From positions 523,106 through 587,105 of the forward strand of contig NZ_SMGG01000003.1 in the NCBI RefSeq assembly GCF_004339245.1: DNA of 64,000 nt, written 5' to 3'. Both the position numbers and the translations under genes were made by a program. The notes beneath the pieces are model-generated. The model was not told the DNA's origin and made no database searches. It saw only the letters and a program-made list of their open reading frames with translations. Every line of letters starts with the position of its first letter. The stretch's first letter is position 1. Below, piece by piece: positions 46,971-62,326 of this stretch. This DNA comes from Seleniivibrio woodruffii (GTDB taxonomy: Bacteria > Chrysiogenota > Deferribacteres > Deferribacterales > Geovibrionaceae).

Positions 46971-48944
46971 TTATTGGGACGCCATTTTAGATATCAAAGT
47001 TCCTATCCCGCGGACGGCTTCGACAGATCCGGCTCTGGAAAGGTGATTGTCGTCCATGTACAGGGCTTTGCCGTCTTTTTCACCAATGCACTCGCCTTCG
47101 GGACAAAGCCCGTCCGCCAGTTCGATTATGGAAAACTTATAATGTTCCGAAAGATTTGCAACGATTTCACGGACTTTTTCGTTGGACTCTTCATATTCGT
47201 CTTTTTTTATGCCCACATTGGAGTCTTCAGCCAGCGAGGGCAGATACTTTTGCAGAACCGTGAGCTTCGCAAGCTCTCTCGGGATATCGTAGGGAAAGTC
47301 GGGGCTGTCCATTACAAAATAGACGTTCTTGCCCGCCAGCTTCTGCATGGTTCTTTCCAGTCCCCTCTCAAACACTTTAGGGTTCTCCTCGGGAGATGAT
47401 TTGACAGTTTCGCCGTCCTTTATGAAAAAGTGGGGAGCCGAGCCCACAGAGGCGTCCTGCCAGCGGGCGTTTATCAAAACGTTCTTAACGGGTGACTGCT
47501 GTATAAGCTCAAGAACTCTGTCGTTATATTCGATGCATCTGAAAGTTGCGGGTTTCGTTGTTCGGGTCACACCCTGCAGGGGTGCGCATGCCGCCTTTGC
47601 CGCCAGAATGCCTGATATTCCTTTTTCTTTGCCGTAGGCATCGAACCCGTCAGCCAGAACAAGAGCGTGGGAATCGCCCCAGAGAATGAAGGACGGTGCT
47701 TTTGTCTTGTCACCCATGATGCAGAGTCCGTTAAGGGTGAGTTTTGACGCATCCTTGCTGAAACATTCGGGAGTTTCGAATGCGCTCTTCTCTGTTTTGG
47801 CGTATGCCGCCGCCTGAGGCGGTATTCTGTCGGGAAGACCTTTATGCAGAGCGACGTAGCCGCCGAGGATGCATCCCAGCGCCATGACGGCGTAAGTTGC
47901 ACGGAAGAATACCTTCTTGTTCTCAATCTTTTTAACCCTCAGGGGTTTTTCGACAATGTAGTAGGAGAAGGAGGCGAAAGCGAACGTAAGGAATATGAGA
48001 AAGGCATCGGACTTCCAGAACTCGGGGATATGGATGCTCTCCCAGTAGTTTCTGAGTGCGAAGAGCGGCCAGTGCCACAGATAGAGCGAATAGGACAGAA
48101 GCCCCACCCACACCACAGGACGCAGGCTGAGGATATTGTTGATCACGCTTCCCTGCGACATTATTATCAGCGCAGTGCCCACGCAGGGCAGAAGAGCCGC
48201 ATAGCCTGGAAAGGGCGTGTCGGTTTCGAATGTGAAAATACTTATTGAGAGCAGGGCTATGCCTGCTATGGACATGATGTTCGTATACAGAGGTTTTTCA
48301 GTTCTCGGGAAAAATTTAAGCGCTATGAGCGCACCGAGCATCAGCTCCCATGTGCGGAAAGGGATAAGATAGAATGCCGCTTCGGGATGGGTCTTTGTTC
48401 CCCAGATGCAGAGGATAAAGGACGCAATGAAGAGCGCCAGCGCATAGCGGACGTATTTTTTACTGCCGTATCTGGCTATAAGCATGAGCATTACGGGAAA
48501 GAAGATATAAAACTGTTCCTCAACACCAAGCGACCAGGTGTGGAGCAGGGGTTTTGTCTCCGCCTGAGTGTCGAAATAGCCGCTTTCACGCCAGAAGAGT
48601 ATATTTGAGCTGAAAAGCACCGTCGAAACGATACTTTTTCCGAAACTTTCAAAGTGGGACGGCATAAGGGAGAAGAACGAAAGGATAAAGGTGAACGCCA
48701 GAAGGAAATAGAGCGCAGGGAAGATACGCTTGACCCGCCTGACATAGAAGTTGGAAATCGTGAAATTTCCGGCATCAAGTTCCTTAACGATTATCGAGGT
48801 TATGAGGTAGCCTGATATCACAAAAAAGATATCAACGCCAACATAGCCGCCGGAGAAAAGGGTCATTCCGGCATGGTAGAAGATAACGGGCATAACGGCC
48901 AGCGTTCTGAGGCCGTCTATATCGCTTCGGTATTTTAAACTCAT
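46971..48944 (-). CDS. OafA/YrhL-type acyltransferase with C-terminal SGNH domain (copy B)
   Basis: A 657-residue membrane O-acyltransferase, probably acetylating the surface polysaccharide. Residues 1-380 are an acyltransferase-3 domain with ten or so membrane segments; SDIDGLRTLAVMPVIFYHAG carries the catalytic His. The C-terminal part is a periplasmic SGNH domain with LWGDSHALVLADG (Ser) and YMDDNHLSRAGS (Asp/His). It is a close paralog of the next gene upstream, overlapping it by four bases (ATGA). The membrane halves are nearly identical and the SGNH halves have diverged. Confidence 0.93.
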   Translation of the reverse strand: MSLKYRSDIDGLRTLAVMPVIFYHAGMTLFSGGYVGVDIFFVISGYLITSIIVKELDAGNFTISNFYVRRVKRIFPALYFLLAFTFILSFFSLMPSHFESFGKSIVSTVLFSSNILFWRESGYFDTQAETKPLLHTWSLGVEEQFYIFFPVMLMLIARYGSKKYVRYALALFIASFILCIWGTKTHPEAAFYLIPFRTWELMLGALIALKFFPRTEKPLYTNIMSIAGIALLSISIFTFETDTPFPGYAALLPCVGTALIIMSQGSVINNILSLRPVVWVGLLSYSLYLWHWPLFALRNYWESIHIPEFWKSDAFLIFLTFAFASFSYYIVEKPLRVKKIENKKVFFRATYAVMALGCILGGYVALHKGLPDRIPPQAAAYAKTEKSAFETPECFSKDASKLTLNGLCIMGDKTKAPSFILWGDSHALVLADGFDAYGKEKGISGILAAKAACAPLQGVTRTTKPATFRCIEYNDRVLELIQQSPVKNVLINARWQDASVGSAPHFFIKDGETVKSSPEENPKVFERGLERTMQKLAGKNVYFVMDSPDFPYDIPRELAKLTVLQKYLPSLAEDSNVGIKKDEYEESNEKVREIVANLSEHYKFSIIELADGLCPEGECIGEKDGKALYMDDNHLSRAGSVEAVRGIGTLISKMASQ

Positions 48945-50863
48945 TTCACCATCTCAAGCAAAAGTGCACCGCCGTTTTTGACTGCATAGTCTGCTCCGAA
49001 TACCGAAAGGTGATCATCGTCGTAATACAGCGCACGGCCGTCATATTGGGTGATGCATCCGTCAGGTCCGCAAAGCCCCTGATACAGAGGAACAACGTGG
49101 AAATTGGTTCTGTTCTCATATTCTTTCAGCAGGCTGATGAGGTTTGAGTTCATTGTTTCATAAGTGCCTGCGGATATATTTATAGGCTGTTTTGAGGCTA
49201 GGGCCGGGATGTACGCCTTGAGCAGTGCATCTTTTGCCAGTTCACGGGGGACATCGAAATCCGCCTCGGCGTTGTCCAGAACAAAAAAGACCTCTTTGTG
49301 CTTCAGCTTATCCAGTGTTCTGTCCAGAGCGGCACGGAAATCTTCCAGTTTTTGGGGTGAGTCGGTGTATTTCATCCATCTGCAAACCAGAACGACATTC
49401 TCAACCTTTCTGTTGTCGGCTATTTCGTCTGCAATGGCGATATTGCTTTTTATACACTGGTCGGCCTTCGCCCTGTCTGTTCCTGCCAGACCCAGAAGGG
49501 GCGGACAGGCTGAGTTGGACATGAACAATCCTGAGGCCTTGTTGTCTCCGGCGAACTTATCCAGTCCGTCTGAAAGTGCCAGTGCGTGGGAGTCACCCCA
49601 CAGAGCGAACACGGGTTTCGACTCCGTATCACCCATGGAGCAGTATTTTCCGGCCTTTATGGCATCTTCGGACAGTTCGTAGCACTCTTTTGTTTTAAAC
49701 TTGCTGTTAGGCGTGTAGGCCAGTTTAGCCGCTTCTTCGGGGATACGCTGGGGTATGCCGTTGGTGACAATTGCGGATGCGCCCACCAGACAGCCGATGA
49801 ACATAACTGCGTAGGTTGCACGGAAGAACAGCTTCCTGTTTTCTATCTTTTTGACCCTCAGGGGTTTTTCGACAATGTAATATGAAAACGCCGCAAAGGC
49901 GAAAGTTAGCAGGATGAGAAACAGGTTCGACTTGTAGAAAGGGGGGATGTCAATATTGCCCCAGTAGTTGCGCAGGGCGAACAGAGGCCAGTGCCAGAGG
50001 TAGAGCGAATAAGACAGAAGCCCTATCCATACAACTGGTTTTGTGCTGAGCACCCTGTTAACGAAACTGCCTTCGGACATTATTATAAGTGCCGTTCCCA
50101 CGCAGGGCAGAAGAGCCGCATAGCCGGGGAAGCTGGTGTCGTGGGAGAAATAGAATATACTGATGCAGAGCAGAAGCAGTCCTGTACCGGACATTATATT
50201 CGTGTGGAGCGGTTTTTCGGTCTTAGGGAAGAATTTCAGTGCGATGAGGGCTCCGAGCATCAGCTCCCATGTGCGGTAGGGGATCAGATAGAAAGCCGCT
50301 TCGGGGTGTGTCTTCGTTCCCCATACGCAGAGGATAAAAGACGCTATGAAGAGTGTCAGCGCATAGCGGACGTATTTTTTGCCGCCGTATTTGGCTATCA
50401 GCATCAGCATTATGGGGAAAAAGATGTAAAACTGTTCCTCAACCCCCAGCGACCAGGTGTGGAGCAGGGGCTTTGTCTCGGCCTGAGAGTCGAAGTAGCC
50501 GCTCTCCTGCCAGAAAAGTATATTAGAGCCGAAAAGCACAGTTGAAACAACGCTTTTGCCGAAACTTTCAAAATGCACCGGCATAAGGGTGAAAAAAGAC
50601 AGCAGAAATGTGAAAGCCAGAAGAAAATAGAGAGCAGGGAAGATACGCTTTACCCGTCTGACATAAAAGTTTGATATGGTGAACCTGTCCTCGTCCAGCT
50701 CTCTTACTATGATGGAGGTTATCAGGTAGCCCGATATGACGAAAAAGATATCCACGCCGACGTAGCCGCCTGAGAAAAGAGTCATTCCGGCGTGATAAAA
50801 AAGGACGGGCATAACGGCCAGTGTCCGCAGTCCGTCTATGTCGCTTCGGTATTTAAGGCTCAT
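48941..50863 (-). CDS. OafA/YrhL-type acyltransferase with C-terminal SGNH domain (copy A)
   Basis: A 640-residue paralog of the 46971-48944 protein with the same architecture. The acyltransferase-3 domain starts SDIDGLRTLAVMPVLFYHAG, and the SGNH domain has LWGDSHALALSDG and YYDDDHLSVFGAD. The family modifies O-antigens and peptidoglycan with acetyl groups. The start lies one base after the stop of the GT2 gene, so both copies belong to one minus-strand transcript. Divergent SGNH domains suggest different acceptor positions. Confidence 0.93.
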   Translation of the reverse strand: MSLKYRSDIDGLRTLAVMPVLFYHAGMTLFSGGYVGVDIFFVISGYLITSIIVRELDEDRFTISNFYVRRVKRIFPALYFLLAFTFLLSFFTLMPVHFESFGKSVVSTVLFGSNILFWQESGYFDSQAETKPLLHTWSLGVEEQFYIFFPIMLMLIAKYGGKKYVRYALTLFIASFILCVWGTKTHPEAAFYLIPYRTWELMLGALIALKFFPKTEKPLHTNIMSGTGLLLLCISIFYFSHDTSFPGYAALLPCVGTALIIMSEGSFVNRVLSTKPVVWIGLLSYSLYLWHWPLFALRNYWGNIDIPPFYKSNLFLILLTFAFAAFSYYIVEKPLRVKKIENRKLFFRATYAVMFIGCLVGASAIVTNGIPQRIPEEAAKLAYTPNSKFKTKECYELSEDAIKAGKYCSMGDTESKPVFALWGDSHALALSDGLDKFAGDNKASGLFMSNSACPPLLGLAGTDRAKADQCIKSNIAIADEIADNRKVENVVLVCRWMKYTDSPQKLEDFRAALDRTLDKLKHKEVFFVLDNAEADFDVPRELAKDALLKAYIPALASKQPINISAGTYETMNSNLISLLKEYENRTNFHVVPLYQGLCGPDGCITQYDGRALYYDDDHLSVFGADYAVKNGGALLLEMVK

Positions 50864-52917: not shown

Positions 52918-53994
52918 ATGAACATATACTATGACAACATAGTTTTCTGGCTGCAGCGTTCCGGCGGTATCTCAAGATACTGGCAGGAGCTTGCCATGCG
53001 CTTTATAGCCGATTCGGACAGCGAAATAACCTTCATCGAACAGCAGCGCCCATGCGAAAACCGCTTCCGTGAAGCGCTACATATGAGCAATATGCTTTAC
53101 GAAAGGAGGCTGCCGCTTCAGATCGCAAGATATCTGAACGTGAGGGCGAAGCTGAAAGAGCTTTCGGTGTTTCATTCCAGCTATTACAGGGACATAAATG
53201 CGCCCCGTTCGGCAAAGATCGTCACTGTCCACGATATGACCTATGAGCTTTATGTCAAGGGGCTTAAAAAGACTGTGCATACCGCCCAGAAGCGCCATGC
53301 GGTGCGGGCTGCTGACGGCGTTATCTGCATTTCGGAGAACACCAGACGTGACCTCCTGAGTTTTTTTCCTGAAATTGACGAATCAAAGATCACTGTGGTA
53401 CACAACGGCGTAGGCGAGGATTTCAGACCTTCTGATAAGCCGAAAGAGGCTATTTTTGAGGCTTTCGGGCTGAAAGATGATAAGTATGCAGTTTTTCTGG
53501 GAGACAGGGGAAGATATAAAAACTTTGATGCCGCAGTAAGGGCATGCGCACTCAGCGGACATTTTCTGCTTGTGATGGGCGGAAAACCTGTGACCGATGA
53601 TGAAAAAGAACTGCTGAAAACCTGTCTGAAAGACAGATATAAGATATTCGGATATATGACAAACGGGCAGATATGCGAGGTTTTTTCTGCGGCGGACTGC
53701 CTGCTCTATCCTTCGCTTTATGAAGGGTTCGGACTGCCTGTTCTGGAAGCCATGCGCTGTGGATGCCCTGTGGTTGCGTCCGACTGCTCCTCTCTGCCGG
53801 AGGCGGCGGGGGATGCGGGCATACTGGTTAAAAACATGACGCCTGAAGGCTATGCCGAGGCCATGGACAGCCTGAAAGACCGCAGGGACGAGCTTATCGC
53901 CAGAGGCTTTGCCCATTCCGCAAATTTTTCATGGGACAGATGCTTCGAAGAGACAAAATCCTTCTATGCGAAAGTGTTGGGGAAAATAGCCTGA
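52918..53994 (+). CDS. Family 4 (GT-B) glycosyltransferase
   Basis: A 358-residue retaining glycosyltransferase of the mannosyltransferase-like GT4 group. The N-terminal half has RSGGISRYWQELAM and FHSSYYRDI. The C-terminal half has VFLGDRGRYKNFDAAVRA and the donor-binding LLYPSLYEGFGLPVLEAMRCG, with the EGFGLPVLE signature and its conserved Glu residues. It begins a rightward unit divergent from the 51641-52798 gene. Its end overlaps the convergent YhcH-like gene by 31 bases. Confidence 0.92.
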   Translation: MNIYYDNIVFWLQRSGGISRYWQELAMRFIADSDSEITFIEQQRPCENRFREALHMSNMLYERRLPLQIARYLNVRAKLKELSVFHSSYYRDINAPRSAKIVTVHDMTYELYVKGLKKTVHTAQKRHAVRAADGVICISENTRRDLLSFFPEIDESKITVVHNGVGEDFRPSDKPKEAIFEAFGLKDDKYAVFLGDRGRYKNFDAAVRACALSGHFLLVMGGKPVTDDEKELLKTCLKDRYKIFGYMTNGQICEVFSAADCLLYPSLYEGFGLPVLEAMRCGCPVVASDCSSLPEAAGDAGILVKNMTPEGYAEAMDSLKDRRDELIARGFAHSANFSWDRCFEETKSFYAKVLGKIA

Positions 53995-54482
53995 AAAGTT
54001 CCGTCAGCGGGGACTTTCAGCACAGTTTTGTAAACAGTTGAGGTTTCGCCGAGCTTTGCCACGCAGAGGTGGGCATCGGCGGGGAAATATACTGCGCAGT
54101 CGAATCCTGAGAACGCAAGTTTTGATGCGTTGTCTGTCAGTTTATATTTAATGAGATCCTTTCCCGCATCAAACGGAACGTCCGTCTCCAGTTTTTCAAT
54201 GCGGCACAGTTCCATCTGTTCGCTTCCGTCAATTATTATCTGTATATCGATGTAGTTCCTGTGTGATTCGAAAAAGCAGAGTTCCCGGTCCTTGGTGTCA
54301 AAAGACTGCTCGATGGCGAAGATGCTGTCTGTTATCTGAAATCTTTCAAACGTGGGCTGAGAAAAGGAGCGTATCCTGCGGACCGCATCGGATTTTTCAT
54401 CTTTAAGCGACAGCAGATATTTTTTTACGGTCTCATCGGCACAGGCGTTTATAAGTTCGTCCAGAACGGTCACAATAGCCAT
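53964..54482 (-). CDS. YhcH/YjgK/YiaL (EbgC-like) family protein
   Basis: A 172-residue cupin-fold protein. The family pattern shows as SHRNYIDIQIIIDGSEQMEL and YFPADAHLCVAKLGE, then KTVLKVPA. Relatives accompany sialic acid and sugar-catabolism genes and may be sugar anomerases or acid-sugar-handling proteins. Here it lies beside the CMP-sugar cassette but on the opposite strand. The start at 54482 has a GAGG upstream (in GTGAGG). It overlaps the convergent glycosyltransferase end by 31 bases. Confidence 0.85.
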   Translation of the reverse strand: MAIVTVLDELINACADETVKKYLLSLKDEKSDAVRRIRSFSQPTFERFQITDSIFAIEQSFDTKDRELCFFESHRNYIDIQIIIDGSEQMELCRIEKLETDVPFDAGKDLIKYKLTDNASKLAFSGFDCAVYFPADAHLCVAKLGETSTVYKTVLKVPADGTFQAIFPNTFA

Positions 54483-54610
54483 TTTTCACCTCACATGGGT
54501 ATATATTCCACCTGTGGCGGCAAATATCAATAAAAATCTGTTGCAGTTAGCTTAAAGCAGGATTATTAACAAACATCTGACTATGAGATATCGGCGGATT
54601 GAATGTGGAA

Positions 54611-54685
54611 GACTGCCACGGGCTGAAGCCCTCGCAGAGACGACTGTTTGTCTTCGCGAGGAGCGAAGCGACGCGGCGATCTGCC
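54611..54685. repeat. GC-rich palindromic intergenic repeat
   Basis: It runs from GACTGCCACGGGCTGAAGCC to GGCGATCTGCC and contains GAGGAGCGAAGCGACGCGGC. GGGCT..AGCCC and CTTCGC..GCGAAG pairs allow strong hairpins. This type of GCGAAGCGACGCGGC repeat is a known kind of dispersed intergenic element. Only one copy is seen in this window. The surrounding 54483-54726 gap holds no gene. Confidence 0.55.
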
Positions 54686-54726
54686 ATAAACAGAATGCCC
54701 TTATTAACTAATTACGAGGCGGTAAT

Positions 54727-55395
54727 ATGAAAGTAACGGCACTGCTCCCCATGAAAGGCAATTCCGAAAGGGTTAAGAACAAGAATATGCGTGATTTCGG
54801 CGGGAAGCCGCTCTATCACGCCGTGATGAGCGTGCTCCTTAAATGCAGGAACATCGACAGGGTGGTCATAAACACCGACAGCGAAATAATAAAAAATGAT
54901 GCGCTGAAAAATTTCGACCGTGTTCAGGTTATCGACAGACCCGTTGAGATTCAGGGTGATTTTGTGGCCATGAACGATATCATAGCCTATGACCTGTCGA
55001 AACTGGACGGCGAATATTTCCTCCAGACCCACAGCACAAATCCGCTGGTCAGCCCGGAGACAATAGACAAGGCAATCGAATATTTCTTTGAAAATCTTAA
55101 TAAATATGACTCAGTCTTCTCGGTTACCCGTTTGCAGACACGCCTTTACTGGGCGGACGGCAGCCCCGTTAACCACAACCCCGCAGAACTTCTGCGCACA
55201 CAGGATCTTCCCCCTGTATACGAGGAGAACAGCAACTTTTTCGTATTCAGCAAAGCCTCTTTTGCCGCCGCAGGCAACAAGCGCATAGGGCTTAAACCCG
55301 CCATGTTCGAGATGAACAAGCTGGAAGCTGTCGACATTGACGAGCCTGAGGACTTTGAACTGGCGGAACTTCTTTACACCAAAAGGAATAAGTGA
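54727..55395 (+). CDS. CMP-sugar synthetase (NeuA/KdsB-like acylneuraminate cytidylyltransferase)
   Basis: Activates an acidic sugar with CTP; 222 residues. The nucleotide-binding start LLPMKGNSERVKNKNMRDFG matches the cytidylyltransferase P-loop-like signature, followed by VVINTDSEII and the THSTNPLVSPETIDKAI segment. The TGA overlaps the next ATG by one base. No NeuB/PseI-type synthase is in the cluster; instead an HpcH/HpaI aldolase lies two genes on. The activated sugar is therefore probably not a standard sialic, legionaminic or pseudaminic acid, unless those genes lie elsewhere. Confidence 0.9.
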   Translation: MKVTALLPMKGNSERVKNKNMRDFGGKPLYHAVMSVLLKCRNIDRVVINTDSEIIKNDALKNFDRVQVIDRPVEIQGDFVAMNDIIAYDLSKLDGEYFLQTHSTNPLVSPETIDKAIEYFFENLNKYDSVFSVTRLQTRLYWADGSPVNHNPAELLRTQDLPPVYEENSNFFVFSKASFAAAGNKRIGLKPAMFEMNKLEAVDIDEPEDFELAELLYTKRNK

Positions 55396-56477
55396 TGACC
55401 CTGCGCCGTATGGCATGGTATTTTTTCAGACTGTTCCGCAAGCTGTGCAAAACTCTTTTCGGCACACCGGAAACCGTCAGAACAATAGCGGTTCTGGGCG
55501 GAAAGGATCCGGATTTTGACAAAAAGGCCGCATGGTATGCGCCGGACACCTTCCGGTTTGTTTCCGGAAGTGCGGACTATTACCTTATTGCCGACTGGCG
55601 GCTTATCTTCATCAATTTTTTCAGACTGCATAAATGCGCTGTGACCGATGAAAATTTTTACTCAACGGAAGAGTGCACCGCATGGAGCTATCTCTACGGC
55701 GGTTTTTCGCAGAAGAACCACAAGGAACTCTCAGCAAAGAATTTTGAAGCGTTGTCAAAAAAACTCCACGGGAAAAGGCAGGCCTGCTGTTTTCTGACGG
55801 GAGAGTCCTTTTCAGATTACGAAAAGCACCCAGAGACAAGGGATATGGTTAAGGTCATATGCAACAGCGTGGTGAAAAACGACGTTTTTCTCGAATGGCT
55901 TAAGCCGGATATTCTCTGTTTTGCGGATCCGGTCTACCATTTCAGCTGGAATGAATATTCCGAAAACTTCCGCAAAGACGTGCTCAAGGCTGTTGAAAAA
56001 TACGATGTGTATGTGATGATCCCTGAGAACATGGTAGCCCTGATGCTGGCGCATTATCCTCAGCTGACCGACAGAATAATTGGCATAGGCCGCAGTGCTG
56101 ATTGGAACTTCCCCTCGGCGGATGATCTATCGGCAAGGTCAACGGATAACATCCTGACCTATCTTATGCTCCCCGCCGCATCCGCATTTGCCGATGAGAT
56201 TTATGTTCTGGGGGCAAACGGCAGAAGCCCCGCCGACAGCATGTTCTGGAAACATAACAGCACTGTTCAGTATGACGGGCTGATGCAAAAGGTGGTGGAC
56301 GCACATCCCTCTTTTTTCCGTGACAGAAATTATGTACAATATCAGAACGGACATGATGAATTAATGGAGTCCCTCTTCGCATACGGCGAGGGCAGGGGCA
56401 AAAAATACATATCGCTGAATGAATCTTATCTGCGGAGCATCTCCGCAAGGTATAACGGAGTAAAGAATGTCTCTTAA
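55395..56477 (+). CDS. Unrecognised polysaccharide-cluster protein, possible glycosyltransferase
   Basis: A 360-residue soluble protein with a basic, Arg-rich start (MTLRRMAWYFFRLFRKLCKT). I do not recognise a family. It reads like an alpha/beta protein: VRTIAVLGGKDPDF, CFLTGESFSDYEKH, DILCFADPVYHFSW, VYVMIPENMVALML and a late IYVLGANGRSPADSMFWKHN. The ADPVYHF and GANG segments recall 6-HMPK/sialyltransferase-like folds seen in some bacterial transferases, but this is a guess. It is tightly coupled between the CMP-sugar synthetase (one-base overlap) and the aldolase (11-base overlap), so it may use the CMP sugar. AAGGA lies seven bases before the ATG. Confidence 0.7.
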   Translation: MTLRRMAWYFFRLFRKLCKTLFGTPETVRTIAVLGGKDPDFDKKAAWYAPDTFRFVSGSADYYLIADWRLIFINFFRLHKCAVTDENFYSTEECTAWSYLYGGFSQKNHKELSAKNFEALSKKLHGKRQACCFLTGESFSDYEKHPETRDMVKVICNSVVKNDVFLEWLKPDILCFADPVYHFSWNEYSENFRKDVLKAVEKYDVYVMIPENMVALMLAHYPQLTDRIIGIGRSADWNFPSADDLSARSTDNILTYLMLPAASAFADEIYVLGANGRSPADSMFWKHNSTVQYDGLMQKVVDAHPSFFRDRNYVQYQNGHDELMESLFAYGEGRGKKYISLNESYLRSISARYNGVKNVS

Positions 56478-57219
56478 AAAGAAACTGCAAAACAACGAAC
56501 TCACACTCGGTTCATGGGTCACCATCGGCCACCAGTCGGTGGTTGAGATAATGGCTTCCGCCGGATTCGAGTGGCTGACAATAGATATGGAACACAGCGT
56601 GATAGAGCTTGCGGCGGCGCAGAACCTCATCGGCCACATTCAGGCGGCGGGCATGAAAGCCCTTGTCAGAGTTGGTAAGAACGAAGAGGTGGTCATTAAG
56701 CGTGTTATGGACGCTGGAGCTGACGGAATCATCGTTCCCATGGTGAACAGCCGTGAGGACGCAGAACAGGCAGTGCGCTATGCGAAATATCCGCCCATAG
56801 GCAAAAGGGGCGTTGGTCTCGCCCGTGCTCAGAAATACGGCATCGGGTTCGACGAATACAAAGGCTGGCTCAACGATGAAGCGGTAATAATAGCTCAGGT
56901 GGAGCATATTGATTCTGTGCGCAACATAAACGACATCATCACGACACCCGGAATAGACGGCATAATAGTCGGTCCCTATGACCTTTCAGGCTCAATGAAC
57001 GTGCCGGGTGAGTATGACCGTCCCGAAGTTAAGGAAGCCCTCCTTGCCGTTGAAAAGGCTTGTAAGGCGGCTAACTTTCCTCTGGGTTTCCATGTTATCC
57101 AGCCGGATTATGACAAACTGAAAGAGAAGATAGATCTCGGATATACATTTCTCGCATTCAGCCTCGATTTTCTGTTTCTGGGGCAGAAGGCCCGTGAAGA
57201 GATGGGAAGGCATAAATAA
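56467..57219 (+). CDS. HpcH/HpaI-family aldolase
   Basis: Class II pyruvate aldolase, 250 residues. Family motifs are FEWLTIDMEHSV, ALVRVGKNEEVVIKRVMDAG (substrate Arg), IIAQVEHIDSV (metal-binding Glu) and IIVGPYDLSGSMN (metal-binding Asp). The family joins or splits pyruvate and an aldehyde to make 2-keto-3-deoxy acids. Sitting beside a CMP-sugar synthetase, it could build a 3-deoxy-2-ulosonic acid in place of a KDO/NeuB-type synthase. That role is inferred from context. It overlaps the previous gene by 11 bases and the next by one. Confidence 0.9.
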   Translation: MSLKKKLQNNELTLGSWVTIGHQSVVEIMASAGFEWLTIDMEHSVIELAAAQNLIGHIQAAGMKALVRVGKNEEVVIKRVMDAGADGIIVPMVNSREDAEQAVRYAKYPPIGKRGVGLARAQKYGIGFDEYKGWLNDEAVIIAQVEHIDSVRNINDIITTPGIDGIIVGPYDLSGSMNVPGEYDRPEVKEALLAVEKACKAANFPLGFHVIQPDYDKLKEKIDLGYTFLAFSLDFLFLGQKAREEMGRHK

Positions 57220-58172
57220 TGAAGGTATTCATCTCCACCCATCCTTTTTTCGAAACGTCTCCCGTGCCTAAAAAGCTCCTTGAGGACAACGGGATAGAAT
57301 ACCGTCTGAACTCAAGAGGCCGCAAGCTGACCTCCGCCGAACTGGCAGAGGACATCAGGGATGCAGTGGTTCTGGTTGCGGGTACAGAGAACATAACCGA
57401 GGAAGTCTTCAAAAATGCGCCGAACCTTAAACTCATCTCCCGTGTTGGAGTGGGGCTTGACGGTGTGGATTTTGAGCTTTGCAGAAAATACGGCGTACAG
57501 GTGGCATACACCCCCGAAGCACCCACAACGGCTGTTGCGGAACTCTGCGTGGGCATGATGCTCGATCTGGCGAGAAAGATAACCGAATCGGACAAGCTCA
57601 TGCGCAAAGGCGGCTGGGCAAGGCACATGGGGCTTCTGCTCCACAGCCGCACAGTGGGCATATTCGGCATGGGACGCATAGGCAAGAGCCTTGCGCATAT
57701 GCTTTCAGGCTTCAACGTTAAAATTCTGGCGCACGACATCAACCCCGATATAATCTTCGGGCGCAACGAGCGCATAACCTATACGGATAAAGAGACGGTG
57801 CTCAGAAACAGCGACATAGTGAGTATTAATCTGCCGCTGAAAAAGGACACAAGAAACTTTATAACGGCAAAAGAGTTTTCCATGATGCAGAAACATGCAT
57901 TTCTGATAAACACCGCCAGAGGCGGAATTGTGAACGAGGATGATCTGTACGATGCGCTGAAAAACGGTGTGATAGCCGGTTCTGCGGCAGATGTTTTCGT
58001 GGACGAACCGTACAAAGGCAAGCTTCTTGAACTGGAGAACATGATATTCACCTGCCACATGGGCGCAGCCACAACGGCCAGCCGCACCGATATGGAGGTT
58101 GAATCCGTTCAGGAGGCGGTGCGCTTCCTTACGGGGCAGAAACTTAAGAACGAGGTTTTCTCCAATGAATGA
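57219..58172 (+). CDS. D-isomer-specific 2-hydroxyacid dehydrogenase (PGDH-like)
   Basis: NAD-dependent dehydrogenase of 317 residues, interconverting a 2-hydroxy and a 2-keto acid. The NAD motif is VGIFGMGRIGKSLAHML near residue 145. The catalytic triad positions are an Arg in NTARGGIVNEDDL, a Glu in VDEPYKGK and a His in CHMGAATTAS. It lies inside the CMP-sugar cassette, overlapping the aldolase by one base (TAATG) and the epimerase by eight. It may form the hydroxy- or keto-acid precursor. A plain serine-pathway PGDH would not be expected here. Confidence 0.9.
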   Translation: MKVFISTHPFFETSPVPKKLLEDNGIEYRLNSRGRKLTSAELAEDIRDAVVLVAGTENITEEVFKNAPNLKLISRVGVGLDGVDFELCRKYGVQVAYTPEAPTTAVAELCVGMMLDLARKITESDKLMRKGGWARHMGLLLHSRTVGIFGMGRIGKSLAHMLSGFNVKILAHDINPDIIFGRNERITYTDKETVLRNSDIVSINLPLKKDTRNFITAKEFSMMQKHAFLINTARGGIVNEDDLYDALKNGVIAGSAADVFVDEPYKGKLLELENMIFTCHMGAATTASRTDMEVESVQEAVRFLTGQKLKNEVFSNE

Positions 58173-59052
58173 AAAGGTTATTGTTTTCGGAGGGGCGGGG
58201 TTTCTGGGATGTTATGTGGTGGAGGAGCTTCTGAAAAGGGGCTACAGGGTCACTGCGGCTGATATCAGAAAGAGCGAATATCTTCCGGAAGCATGCGAAT
58301 TTGTTCAGTGTGATATTATGGACAGGCATGCGGTAAGTCAGCTTATCACTTCTGATGTGTCCTATGTCTACAACTTTGCCGGCATGGCAAATCTGGATAT
58401 GGCTGTTGCGCACCCCGTTGAGACCATCGAGTCCAACATAATGGGCAACCTGAACATTCTGGAAGCCAGCAAAAATAAAAATATCAAAAGATATATTTAC
58501 GCATCAAGCGCTTACGCTCTCAGCGACAGAGGCTCGTTTTACGGTGTCAGCAAACTGGCATCGGAAAAACTCACCGAGGAATATTACAGAGCGTTCGGAC
58601 TGAAATTTACCATCATCCGCTACGGTTCGGTATACGGCGAGAGGGCATACGGCAACAACTATCTCTATTCGGTGCTGAAAAGCGCAATAACCGAGAAGAA
58701 GATAGTCCACGACAGGGACGGGCAGGAGGTTCGGGAGTACATCCACGCACAGGATGCCGCCACAATGTCGGTGGATATCATTGAGGATGAAAAATTCTCC
58801 AACGGACACATAATCCTGACGGGCATCGAGCGGATGCCGAGGGTGGATCTGTTCGTAATGATAAAAGAGATTCTGGGCAACGATGTGGAGATTGTGCTGA
58901 ACAAAGAGGTGAACGACCACCACTATAAGCTCACGCCCTATTCGTTCCATCCCAGCGTCTGTAAAAAACTTGTACCCAACCCGTTCATAGATATGGGACA
59001 GGGGATTCTTGACTGTATCCGTGAGATACACGAGAGGGAGCACGGCGATTAA
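58165..59052 (+). CDS. NAD-dependent sugar epimerase/dehydratase
   Basis: Extended SDR enzyme of 295 residues. The NAD motif is GGAGFLGCYVVEELL at residues 8-22. YASSAYALSD carries the catalytic-type Ser and FYGVSKLASEKL the Tyr-x3-Lys pair; RYGSVYGERA and EYIHAQDAATM are typical late motifs. The ATG at 58165 overlaps the dehydrogenase end by eight bases; an upstream in-frame start lies deep inside that gene. Its substrate is probably a nucleotide sugar or the cassette's own intermediate. Confidence 0.92.
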   Translation: MNEKVIVFGGAGFLGCYVVEELLKRGYRVTAADIRKSEYLPEACEFVQCDIMDRHAVSQLITSDVSYVYNFAGMANLDMAVAHPVETIESNIMGNLNILEASKNKNIKRYIYASSAYALSDRGSFYGVSKLASEKLTEEYYRAFGLKFTIIRYGSVYGERAYGNNYLYSVLKSAITEKKIVHDRDGQEVREYIHAQDAATMSVDIIEDEKFSNGHIILTGIERMPRVDLFVMIKEILGNDVEIVLNKEVNDHHYKLTPYSFHPSVCKKLVPNPFIDMGQGILDCIREIHEREHGD

Positions 59053-59704
59053 GCGTATCTTTCTTTCCCACACAATAAATTCTGAAACCCCCGCATACGG
59101 CGGAAAAAAACAGGTTGAGCTTGAGCGCACTTCCGACATGGCAAAGGGCGACACTGCCAACAATACTCGTCTGAGCATGAGTCTGCACACGGGAACCCAT
59201 CTGGACATGCCCCTGCATTTCTTTGCAGACGGGCAGGACATCAGCTCTTACGGTGCGGATTTCTGGTTCTTTGAAAAGCCTCTTTTCGTGTGCGTTGAGC
59301 CTGCGGGCTATGTTATAAATGATGAACTGCTTGGCAAGCTCGACACCATCGAAGACAAAGGATATGACTGCATCATCGTCCGCACGGGTTTTGACCGTTC
59401 AGACGAAAACATGGCGGATAAAAACTTCGGTTTCCACGAATCGGTGGCGGACTATATACGGAAAAAATACAGGTCTGTCAGACTGTTCGGAATGGATACC
59501 CTTTCGGTTTCCTCTTTTCAGGACAGGATGGAGGGCAGAAAGGCGCACAGGGCTTTTCTGAATCCTGAAAGCCCGCTGATACTCCTTGAGGATATGAAAC
59601 TGGACGATCCTGATATTTATAAAATAAGCAGACTTATTATATTGCCTCTGCGGGTTGACCAAGGTGACGGATTGCCCTGCACAGTGGTGGGCGAGACAGC
59701 ATGA
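59009..59704 (+). CDS. Cyclase-family protein (kynurenine formamidase-like metal hydrolase)
   Basis: A protein of 231 residues at most, with the cyclase fold signature LSMSLHTGTHLDMPLHFFAD, whose His and Asp residues bind metal. Members hydrolyse or cyclise amides and lactones (KynB is the best known). No tryptophan genes are nearby; here it may open or close a lactone-type sugar acid. The start is unclear. TTG at 59009 has AGGGG close by and adds 13 out-of-family residues. ATT at 59048 follows AGGGAG by seven bases and would give MKRIFLSHTI, the expected family N-terminus. The end overlaps the HAD gene by four bases. Confidence 0.8.
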   Translation: MTVSVRYTRGSTAIKRIFLSHTINSETPAYGGKKQVELERTSDMAKGDTANNTRLSMSLHTGTHLDMPLHFFADGQDISSYGADFWFFEKPLFVCVEPAGYVINDELLGKLDTIEDKGYDCIIVRTGFDRSDENMADKNFGFHESVADYIRKKYRSVRLFGMDTLSVSSFQDRMEGRKAHRAFLNPESPLILLEDMKLDDPDIYKISRLIILPLRVDQGDGLPCTVVGETA

Positions 59705-60333
59705 TACAGAGCATAATTTTCGATTTCGACGGTGTGGTGCTGGATTCCATGCCTGTTAAAGACAGAGGATTTGAGCTTCTTTTTGCGGAGTTCGACGAGG
59801 TTTCCGTCGGAAAACTTCTGGCTTTCCACAGGGAGAACGGCGGTATATCCAGATTTGTCAAGATACGCCATATGTTTGAGAATATTCTGGGACAAAGCAT
59901 AACCGACGAAGGTGTCAGCGAGTATGCCGAAAGGTATTCGAAGCTGATGCTGGCGGAGCTGACCAGTCCTAAGTATATAATAGACGAAACACTTGATTTC
60001 ATTAAAGAATACAGCGGCAGAGTCCCCATGCACGTCGCATCGGGCACAGAGCAGAACGAGCTGAGATATATCTGCCAATGTCAGGGACTTACTCAGTTTT
60101 TCGGCTCAATTTACGGTTCACCTGCGCCCAAGGACAGGCTGGTGGCGGACATCATCGCCGAAAACTGCTATGACCCTGCAAAAGTGGTCATGATAGGTGA
60201 TTCCACAGCGGATCATGATGCCGCAAGAGCCAGCGGACTGATATTCTGCGGCTACAACGGCGAACGTTTGAGAAAAATTTCCGATTTTTACATAGACGAT
60301 TACGGCTCATTTGCCGAAAGGTTTCTGGGCTGA
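59701..60333 (+). CDS. HAD-superfamily phosphatase
   Basis: A 210-residue haloacid-dehalogenase-type phosphatase. Motif I FDFDGVVLDSMP is at residues 7-18 with nucleophile Asp7 or 8 and acid Asp9 or 10. Motif II is in HVASGTEQNEL, the Lys near SPAPKDRLV, and motif IV VVMIGDSTADHDAARA. The helical cap after motif I marks it as a beta-phosphoglucomutase/GPH-like member. In the cassette it could remove the phosphate from an ulosonate before CMP transfer, as KdsC does for KDO. It overlaps the cyclase gene by four bases. Confidence 0.9.
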   Translation: MIQSIIFDFDGVVLDSMPVKDRGFELLFAEFDEVSVGKLLAFHRENGGISRFVKIRHMFENILGQSITDEGVSEYAERYSKLMLAELTSPKYIIDETLDFIKEYSGRVPMHVASGTEQNELRYICQCQGLTQFFGSIYGSPAPKDRLVADIIAENCYDPAKVVMIGDSTADHDAARASGLIFCGYNGERLRKISDFYIDDYGSFAERFLG

Positions 60334-60344
60334 CGGGGTTTTAT

Positions 60345-61157
60345 TTGTTAAGCATAATCAGGGGTTCTCTGGAATTTATTCAGAATATCTACAAAGAGCG
60401 GGCGCTTGTGCTTGCGCTTTCGGTGGACGATTTCCGCCAGCAGTATCTGGGGTCATATCTGGGTCTGCTCTGGGCGCTTTTCCGCCCTCTCCTGTTCGTT
60501 GCCACCATCTGGCTGGTTTTTTCCGTGGGCTTCAAGCGGATTGGCAGCGACCATGTGCCGTTCCTGCTCTATCTTGTCTGCGGCTATGCCCCGTGGGTAT
60601 ATTTTGCTGACTGCGTCAACGGCGGAATGAACGCTGTTGTGAACAACAGGCATCTGGTGAAAAAGGTTGACTTCCGTGTGAGTATCCTGCCTCTGGTCAA
60701 AATAATTTCGTCTTTCTTTCTGCATCTTATTTTTCTGCTTATCATAGCGGCTATAGCTATTTATAAAGGGTATTACCCCACCGTCTACTGGCTCCAGCTT
60801 CCGTTCTATCTGTTCTGTATATTTCTGATAACCCTCGGTCTCGGATGGTTCACAGGAGCTATCCGTGTTTTCACCAAGGACATGAGTCAGGTTGTCAGCG
60901 TGATCCTCCAGACGGGATTCTGGATAACCCCCATCTTCTGGCAGGTTTCCTCCGTTCCTGAAAAATACAGAGTGTTCCTTTATATCAATCCCATGGTGTA
61001 TATCGTTGAAGGTTATAGAAATACCTTCATCTATAATAAATGGTTCTTTGCGGATATAAATGCGCTTTTGTTCTTCCTGTTCTTTGCGCTCATTTTTCTG
61101 CTCATCGGTGTTGTCACCTTTAAGAAACTGCGCCCCCATTTTGCGGAGGTGCTGTAG
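60345..61157 (+). CDS. wzm: O-antigen ABC exporter permease (Wzm-like)
   Basis: ABC-2 type permease that moves lipid-linked polysaccharide to the periplasm; 270 residues with six membrane segments. DFRQQYLGSYLGLLWALFRP, the amphipathic start before the first membrane helix, is highly typical of Wzm/TagG. So is GFWITPIFWQVSSVP near the end. The start is TTG at 60345, seven bases after GGGG. Its stop overlaps the Wzt GTG by one base (TAGTG). Confidence 0.93.
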   Translation: MLSIIRGSLEFIQNIYKERALVLALSVDDFRQQYLGSYLGLLWALFRPLLFVATIWLVFSVGFKRIGSDHVPFLLYLVCGYAPWVYFADCVNGGMNAVVNNRHLVKKVDFRVSILPLVKIISSFFLHLIFLLIIAAIAIYKGYYPTVYWLQLPFYLFCIFLITLGLGWFTGAIRVFTKDMSQVVSVILQTGFWITPIFWQVSSVPEKYRVFLYINPMVYIVEGYRNTFIYNKWFFADINALLFFLFFALIFLLIGVVTFKKLRPHFAEVL

Positions 61158-62326
61158 TGAGCAGGGTAACTGTTGTCCGTGCGGAGAACATCGGCAAAGT
61201 CTACAGGCTCTATGCAAAACCTTTCGACAGGGTTCTGGAGGTTTTCAGCCCCACAGGAAAACCGAAGCATAAAGAGTTTCATGCGCTGAAAGGCGTTTCG
61301 CTGGAACTGAAACGGGGCGAGACTCTGGGGATCATCGGCCGCAACGGCCACGGCAAATCAACACTGCTTAAGATAATAGCGGGTGTCATTCAGCCCACAT
61401 ACGGCACAGTGCACAAGCGGGGCAGGGTGGCGGCCATTCTGGAGGTTACCTCAGGCCTTAAGCCAGAGCTGACCGGAATGGAGAACATCATCCTGAACCT
61501 TAAGATAAACGGGTTCACCGGAGATATTCTCAAAGCAAAATCGGACGAGGTCATAGCCTTTGCGGAGTTGAAAGAGCACATCAATCAGCCTGTGAAAACC
61601 TACAGCAGCGGCATGAAATCCCGTCTGGGGTTCGGCATCGCCACCTCTGTTGATCCCGATATTCTGATTCTGGACGAGGTGCTTGCGGTGGGGGATTTTG
61701 TTTTCCGTCAGAAGTGCCTCTCAAAGATAAATTCCATGCGGGAGCGGATGTCGGTGATATTCGTTTCCCACTCAATGAACGATGTCAAAATGTTCTGCGA
61801 CAAGGTGATGGTCATCCGCAACGGAGAGGCTGTTTTCAACGGCAACACCGACGAGGGGATAGAGCTTTATCTGAGCAGTCAGGAGCAGAAGGGCACGGCC
61901 GAGCCGGTTCGTCCCTTCTATGGCGACATTTTCCACAATGAAGGAAAAATCAGCGACGTTACCCATTTCTGGGATAAAGAACAGTACAGGCTGGGCGAGG
62001 ACATGATTTTCGAGTTCTCATTCCGTCTGCATTTCGAACCGAAGAACCTGATAATAGGAATCCCGCTGTATACTGCGGAGGGAACCCTTGTCACCGCCTT
62101 TAACACGGACACCTCAAAATTCCATTTTGATAACGCAAATAATGTGGTAAAAGGTAGATTAAGGGTACCCTGTGTGTTCAACCCGGCGGATTATATTTCC
62201 GTTATCGCCGTTGTTGACGGACGGGAGTTCCTCTACAGACAGCTCAACGGCGGCTTCTGCGTTCTGCCGCAGGAGAGGGTTTTCGGATTTGTTACTGTCG
62301 GACAGAAATGGGAGACATATGAGTGA
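61157..62326 (+). CDS. wzt: O-antigen ABC exporter ATPase with carbohydrate-binding domain (Wzt-like)
   Basis: ATPase partner of Wzm, 389 residues. Walker A is GRNGHGKST (His in place of the common Ala), the signature is YSSGMKSRL, and Walker B is ILILDEVLAVGD. Residues from about 245 form an extra beta-sandwich domain (EGKISDVTHFWDKEQY, FSFRLHFEPKNLIIG). In E. coli O8/O9a-type Wzt proteins this domain recognises the capped end of the O-chain before export. GTG start with a one-base overlap with wzm; it overlaps the methyltransferase gene by eight bases, tying the capping enzyme to the exporter. Confidence 0.93.
   Translation: MSRVTVVRAENIGKVYRLYAKPFDRVLEVFSPTGKPKHKEFHALKGVSLELKRGETLGIIGRNGHGKSTLLKIIAGVIQPTYGTVHKRGRVAAILEVTSGLKPELTGMENIILNLKINGFTGDILKAKSDEVIAFAELKEHINQPVKTYSSGMKSRLGFGIATSVDPDILILDEVLAVGDFVFRQKCLSKINSMRERMSVIFVSHSMNDVKMFCDKVMVIRNGEAVFNGNTDEGIELYLSSQEQKGTAEPVRPFYGDIFHNEGKISDVTHFWDKEQYRLGEDMIFEFSFRLHFEPKNLIIGIPLYTAEGTLVTAFNTDTSKFHFDNANNVVKGRLRVPCVFNPADYISVIAVVDGREFLYRQLNGGFCVLPQERVFGFVTVGQKWETYE

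Follow-up and report, generated by a model that had tools for sequence, protein, structure and literature searches.

The 64,000-nucleotide stretch of the Seleniivibrio woodruffii genome analysed here (hereafter the window) carries at positions 54727-60333 of the plus strand a cassette of seven co-directional, coupled genes which, together with the genes next to it, probably provides an aldol-based route to a 3-deoxy-2-ulosonic acid activated with cytidine monophosphate (CMP), with its own transferase and located upstream of an ATP-binding cassette (ABC) exporter of O-antigen. To our knowledge, all the CMP-activated ulosonic acids, namely 3-deoxy-D-manno-oct-2-ulosonic (Kdo), sialic, legionaminic and pseudaminic acids, come from one superfamily of phosphoenolpyruvate (PEP)-dependent synthases, and no gene of the KdsA or NeuB family was found among the seven with Pfam and NCBIfam models, as the preliminary description of this DNA had stated. 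The same models, with equivalog cut-offs used for specific enzymes, agree with the order and families that it had given for the seven open reading frames (ORFs). The genes concerned are as follows.

53964..54482, minus strand: DUF386 (YhcH/YjgK/YiaL) protein, putative ulosonic-acid anomerase (PF04074)
54727..55395, plus strand: cytidylyltransferase of the NeuA/PseF/KdsB superfamily, cassette-specific clade (PF02348, CTP_transf_3)
55392..56477, plus strand: P2, putative CMP-ulosonate glycosyltransferase with a Maf/CstII-like fold (AlphaFold2 model and structural alignment)
56467..57219, plus strand: HpcH/HpaI-type pyruvate aldolase (PF03328)
57219..58172, plus strand: D-2-hydroxyacid dehydrogenase, phosphoglycerate dehydrogenase-like (PF02826/PF00389)
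58165..59052, plus strand: NAD-dependent epimerase/dehydratase-family protein, extended short-chain dehydrogenase/reductase (SDR) (PF01370)
59048..59704, plus strand: metal-dependent hydrolase with the cyclase/kynurenine-formamidase fold, ATT start (PF04199)
59701..60333, plus strand: HAD-family phosphatase (PF13419)
60345..61157, plus strand: Wzm-type ABC-2 permease for O-antigen/polysaccharide export (PF01061)
61157..62326, plus strand: Wzt-type ABC ATPase with a C-terminal domain (PF00005; PF14524 with 26.1 bits, under the cut-off of 30.4)

The block of genes coding for the cytidylyltransferase, P2, aldolase, dehydrogenase, epimerase, cyclase-fold hydrolase, HAD protein, Wzm, Wzt and MT is kept in this order in all four other genomes of the same genus that were tested. 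The genome scan with the aldolase alignment yielded 39 loci, of which 38 are genuine relatives; their hosts belong to Campylobacterota, Bacteroidota, Deferribacterota, Thermodesulfobacteriota and further phyla. A cytidylyltransferase, either NeuA/PseF-like or KdsB-like, lies within 4 kb of the aldolase in 38/38 testable loci, the window included and locus L042 left out, as only 18 bases of its sequence precede the aldolase, and the two genes are often within 20 bases of each other. Partners were scored by ORF clustering with a tblastn follow-up, by which the KdsB-like gene was located opposite antisense ORFs in L052 and L089. Among the 37 clustered loci, the 2-hydroxyacid dehydrogenase (HDH) is present in 32, the cyclase-fold hydrolase in 26 and the HAD protein in 22. 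The count for the epimerase-family SDR is also 32 but includes a few other SDRs. An independent sample of Campylobacteria and Bacteroidia genomes, picked by the aldolase alone, showed a cytidylyltransferase in 10/10 loci along with most of the other partners, which brings the total to 48/48 testable aldolase loci with a cytidylyltransferase of either kind.

The search in the opposite direction gave the same picture: the cassette-type cytidylyltransferase was found in four of the 249 Campylobacteria genomes (67-71% identity, the next best match having 36%), each of which has the aldolase directly downstream, its start lying within about 25 bases. The aldolase itself is present in 6/249 of these genomes, and the two beyond those four carry the KdsB-like version. 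The co-occurrence of the two genes, which the preliminary description had proposed as a check, is thus far beyond chance and extends over several phyla. The viral contigs scanned with the aldolase and the epimerase contained no relatives of either, and the plasmid collection gave one distant aldolase match with 43% identity. In one search, the region G231:C1:666745-668156 showed an aldolase match with one TGA and two TAG codons inside it and a cytidylyltransferase match with one TGA. The copy may be decaying, the sequence may contain an error, or the match may overrun the gene end.

The supply of substrate to the cassette cytidylyltransferase was considered by counting genes in eight genomes. 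In each of them the number of PF02348 proteins equals one (KdsB) plus the number of NeuB genes plus one (cassette), namely 4=1+2+1 for the source genome, G165, G174 and G190, 5=1+3+1 for G231, 2=1+0+1 for G049 and G292, and 3=1+1+1 for G600, where clear PF02348 matches are counted, marginal ones near the cut-off in long frames are left out, and the set includes several drafts or metagenome-assembled genomes. NeuB is absent genome-wide from G049 and G292, both of which have the cassette, and one canonical KdsA is present in each of the seven genomes tested (G190 not among them). Draconibacterium mangrovi is a cassette strain lacking NeuB, and Sulfurimonas also has cassette strains. Since KdsA is paired with KdsB and each NeuB with one cytidylyltransferase, the argument by elimination leaves the aldolase as the only candidate supplier of the cassette enzyme. 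A synthase encoded elsewhere, which the preliminary description had named among the findings that would speak against its proposal, was looked for on the genome level, and the counts leave no spare NeuB or KdsA.

In L018 (G000 C3:895000-914000), L019 and L067, the source genome also possesses a full legionaminic-type locus with LegB, LegC, NeuB, NeuC, PtmE and LegF-like genes, another set of LegF-type genes lacking NeuB, and NeuB paired with NeuC at a separate place. The suggestion that an orphan PseI depends on the cassette cytidylyltransferase was rejected, as both strong NeuB genes adjoin NeuC-like genes and the genome encodes two enzymes of the LegF type.

The cytidylyltransferase belongs to its family with 115 bits to PF02348 against the gathering value of 22.6, and its nucleotide-site residues K10, S13, R157, Q159, D160, D203 and D205 are conserved. 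The tree places the NeuA-like enzymes of the cassettes apart from KdsB and from the LegF-type enzymes of the source genome, to which the window enzyme is only about 26% identical, some deep branches being long and loosely placed. The KdsB-like variant found in other loci passes the cut-off of the Kdo cytidylyltransferase subfamily model. Both the NeuA-like and the KdsB-like families are characterised activators of 3-deoxy-2-ulosonic acids.

The aldolase is a member of the HpcH/HpaI family as judged by its domain (PF03328, 124.5 bits) and catalytic residues: R68, H43, E146 and D172 align with the catalytic Arg/His and metal-binding Glu/Asp of HpaI and YfaU, the first three being conserved in 37 relatives and D172 in 36/37. 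It is under the equivalog cut-offs for HpaI (171 vs 368.8 bits), GarL (154.5 vs 406.75) and RhmA (134.8 vs 441). The catalytic motifs of the other enzymes are intact as well, including R234, E263 and H280 of the dehydrogenase (33 relatives), YxxxK and the glycine motif of the epimerase (PF01370, 140 bits), H60, H64, D66 and H70 of the hydrolase (PF04199, 65.7 bits; numbering from the TTG at 59009), and DxD, S140, K144 and GD of the HAD phosphatase (PF13419, E 1.7e-12; 22 relatives).

P2, the second protein of the cassette, was called unrecognised in the preliminary description and belongs to no Pfam or NCBIfam family, and this view had to be revised after modelling. The AlphaFold2 model, built from 11 homologues, has a pLDDT (predicted local distance difference test) of 85.8 and in structural realignment gave Z values of 13.5 with Maf (5mu5), 12 with MptE-like HPPK, 11.2 with CstII (1ro7) and about 9 with human sialyltransferases, the next unrelated rows being at 4.6, so the model shares the fold of Maf and GT42 (CstII) proteins. 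The P2 relative in L053 weakly matches the MptE-like family (E 1.7e-5, below the cut-off), and DUF115/MptE-like proteins adjoining the cytidylyltransferase in other loci weakly match the alpha-2,3-sialyltransferase family. Since this is the fold of transferases using CMP-sialic acid, the natural reading of the model is that P2 is a putative CMP-ulosonate transferase.

The divergent gene upstream of the cassette codes for a DUF386 protein (PF04074, 81.5 bits vs 26.5, E 8e-23), with E71, H73, D78, Q80 and H137 invariant in the alignment of 12 members and with a profile that matches the structures of HP1029 and HI0227/YhcH. Its homologues are located within the cassette in L039, L041, L046, L090 and L091 and adjoin the cytidylyltransferase or lie near it in L033-L035, L040, L044, L047 and L055. 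The cassette is flanked by other glycan genes and, downstream, by the Wzm/Wzt exporter, and the functional unit reaches past 54727-60333, from the DUF386 gene upstream to Wzm/Wzt downstream; the seven genes do belong together as first delimited, the DUF386 gene beside them having been overlooked. The G+C content of the cassette is the same as that of the window (0.49).

The genes of the cassette overlap at successive junctions by 4, 11, 1, 8, 5 and 4 bases. This agrees with the coupling and the 1-base minimum given previously, but the maximum of 44 bases, between the epimerase and cyclase genes, requires a TTG start at 59009, whereas the ATT start at 59048 reduces it to 5. The latter, although a rare start codon, is more likely judging by the sequence because ATT-AA(A/G), with its ATT at 59048-59050, and the purine-rich stretch upstream are kept in four relatives (L020, L021, L022 and L023). 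Between the DUF386 and cytidylyltransferase genes, at 54540-54720, there is a G+C-rich hairpin-like stretch resembling a dispersed repeat. Further upstream, at positions 46971-50863, two acyltransferase-like genes that closely resemble each other lie in tandem; their products, of 657 and 640 amino acids, are probably O-acetyltransferases acting on the glycan.

The loci can be divided into two types. Type I loci have the epimerase and the HAD protein, while in type II loci, from Bacteroidota and Denitrovibrio, their place is taken by a GmhA-like sugar-phosphate isomerase together with a Gfo/Idh oxidoreductase. To these is added either an AroB-related phospholyase (TIGR04425, above the cut-off) accompanied by a short SDR, or else a phosphatase of the inositol-monophosphatase type. 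Both types have a phosphate-removing step and retain the dehydrogenase and, usually, the cyclase-fold hydrolase, and may represent two ways to different acceptors or derivatives around a common aldol-activation core. The GmhA-like isomerase of type II, combined with a phosphatase or a phosphate-eliminating cyclase, looks like the KdsD-KdsC logic arranged around an aldolase. Genes for sugar-phosphate cyclases of the kind to which NCBI gives the name 'AroB-related putative sugar phosphate phospholyase' accompany the aldolase and cytidylyltransferase in L035, L036, L040, L044 and L047 (TIGR04425 was scored for L040), and most of these loci also have the GmhA-like and Gfo/Idh genes, which suggests a pathway context for the hypothetical TIGR04425 family.

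In the proposed pathway, the dehydrogenase, epimerase, cyclase-fold hydrolase and HAD phosphatase would prepare the acceptor aldehyde or trim the product, and the HpcH/HpaI aldolase would condense pyruvate with the aldehyde in place of a PEP-dependent synthase, phosphate being removed where needed after the aldol addition. The DUF386 anomerase would speed up the conversion between the open form handled by the aldolase and the ring form handled by the cytidylyltransferase, which would then form the CMP-sugar; P2 with its Maf/CstII fold would transfer the sugar to the surface glycan, to be exported by Wzm/Wzt. The synthetic direction of the aldolase reaction and the action of the HAD protein on an ulosonate phosphate are inferred, as are acceptor and product and the part that each accessory enzyme plays. 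A carboxylated aldehyde, the kind released by HpaI and GarL in their natural reactions, is a possible acceptor by analogy. The pathway logic is well supported and the chemistry is unproven: the core idea of an aldolase replacing the synthase, put forward in the preliminary description, passes the checks on the genome level.

Several observations weigh against this pathway. The DUF386 protein is under the cut-off for N-acetylneuraminate anomerase (NF040884, 52.4 vs 160 bits), and the window cytidylyltransferase is also below the curated cut-offs for characterised enzymes, namely the PseF (TIGR03584, 81.6 vs 205.7 bits) and KdsB (TIGR00466, 21.5 vs 155.2 bits) equivalogs. Plain Foldseek with the P2 model gave no significant match and the profile search of PDB sequences with P2 was empty, so its likeness to solved structures is structural only. 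The recurrent 2-hydroxyacid dehydrogenase and cyclase-fold hydrolase are superfluous to the simplest scheme, and HpcH/HpaI aldolases are mostly recorded from breakdown pathways. In addition, we know of no glycan described from any host strain.

Other explanations for the gene set were considered less probable. Two pathways may run side by side, with the cytidylyltransferase serving an ordinary nonulosonic acid or Kdo from a synthase encoded elsewhere and the other genes making a separate hydroxy acid or another substituent for the same glycan. The source genome does have two NeuB genes, one of which (C5) lacks an adjacent cytidylyltransferase, and the legionaminic-type locus elsewhere, but this arrangement is unlikely given the one-to-one matching of each NeuB and KdsA with its own cytidylyltransferase in the eight genomes, the two cassette genomes without NeuB, and the fact that the aldolase abuts either of two distinct kinds of cytidylyltransferase. 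Alternatively, the phosphoglycerate dehydrogenase (PGDH)-like enzyme and the phosphatase could make hydroxypyruvate from 3-phosphoglycerate for the aldolase to use, giving a 2-ulosonic acid which keeps its 3-hydroxyl and is then activated with CMP. This would account for the recurrence in most loci of the phosphatase and of the PGDH-like dehydrogenase, which scores 226.8 bits with the PGDH model, and the relatives of the cassette aldolase in the PDB include hydroxyketoacid aldolases of the HpcH type; however, the characterised cytidylyltransferases of both families take 3-deoxy acids and the nearest relatives HpaI, GarL and YfaU use pyruvate, and we consider this version unlikely, though worth keeping in view on account of the PGDH-like enzyme.

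A product that is linked to CMP without being ulosonic, the other enzymes supplying an acid which is open-chain or not a sugar, seems improbable. It would be in keeping with two enzymes of the dehydrogenase/epimerase type and a hydrolase, the lack of a sugar-nucleotide partner in the cassette and the low identity of the cytidylyltransferase to the LegF-type paralogues, but the nucleotide-site motifs of the family are conserved, the KdsB-like variant is above its Kdo subfamily cut-off, and among the DUF386 proteins there is an anomerase that acts on cyclic keto-sugar acids. Finally, it is highly improbable that the aldolase is catabolic, working in recycling or salvage, and is close to the cytidylyltransferase through a common substrate rather than joint synthesis: HpaI, GarL and RhmA do belong to catabolism, as does the aldolase with which YhcH works, yet the cassette aldolase lies in regions for glycan assembly, where glycosyltransferases, flippases or Wzm/Wzt are encoded, and no genes for uptake or sugar-acid breakdown were seen beside the cassette.

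The broader proposition, according to which a PEP-synthase-independent CMP-ulosonate pathway is widespread in several phyla, with an undescribed 3-deoxy-2-ulosonic acid as the aldolase product, two cytidylyltransferase clades and dedicated Maf/CstII-fold transferases, is in our judgement evenly balanced between being right and wrong; given the type II accessory enzymes, the acid is possibly branched, cyclitol-derived or dicarboxylic. If the aldol-based route is real, it would be a second biosynthetic origin for CMP-activated ulosonic acids, via an unrelated pyruvate aldolase, of interest to bacterial glycobiology. Surface sugars as yet undescribed would then be expected in Campylobacterota, Bacteroidota, Deferribacterota and Desulfobacterota, with an aldolase beside a cytidylyltransferase as the gene-level marker for finding them, and the HpcH/HpaI and DUF386 families, which are mostly known from breakdown, would gain a function in building glycans. 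No such cassette was found described in the open-access literature, to which the search was confined; for HpcH together with cytidylyltransferase only a Halomonas genome paper surfaced, and nothing was found there on a bradyrhizose pathway. The capsule of Klebsiella K38, which contains a 3-deoxy-pentulosonic acid, was considered as a possible parallel; the text of the cps survey mentions neither aldolases nor cytidylyltransferases.

Compared with known systems, the cassette shares with the CMP-Kdo pathway (KdsD-KdsA-KdsC-KdsB) the supply of a sugar phosphate, a phosphatase and a PF02348 cytidylyltransferase, which in some cassettes is KdsB-like, but has an HpcH/HpaI aldolase in place of the PEP-dependent KdsA, while canonical KdsA and KdsB are encoded separately in the same genomes. 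With the nonulosonic pathways (NeuB/LegI/PseI, NeuA/LegF/PseF, Maf or CstII) it has in common a NeuA/PseF-like cytidylyltransferase and a transferase of the Maf/CstII fold; unlike them, the seven genes include no NeuB-family synthase, aminotransferase or acetyltransferase, and the cytidylyltransferase is under the PseF cut-off. The aldolase resembles HpcH/HpaI, GarL and YfaU/RhmA in family, metal ligands and catalytic Arg/His, but has its own conserved GPYDLS and LxRAQxYG motifs and is set in glycan-assembly loci, whereas those enzymes are set in breakdown operons. YhcH of the DUF386 family is an anomerase giving the open form of N-acetylneuraminic acid to its aldolase (PMC8141875). The cassette DUF386 protein has the family, the candidate metal-site residues and the partnership with a pyruvate aldolase in common with YhcH and, unlike it, falls under the equivalog cut-off and partners a biosynthetic-looking locus.

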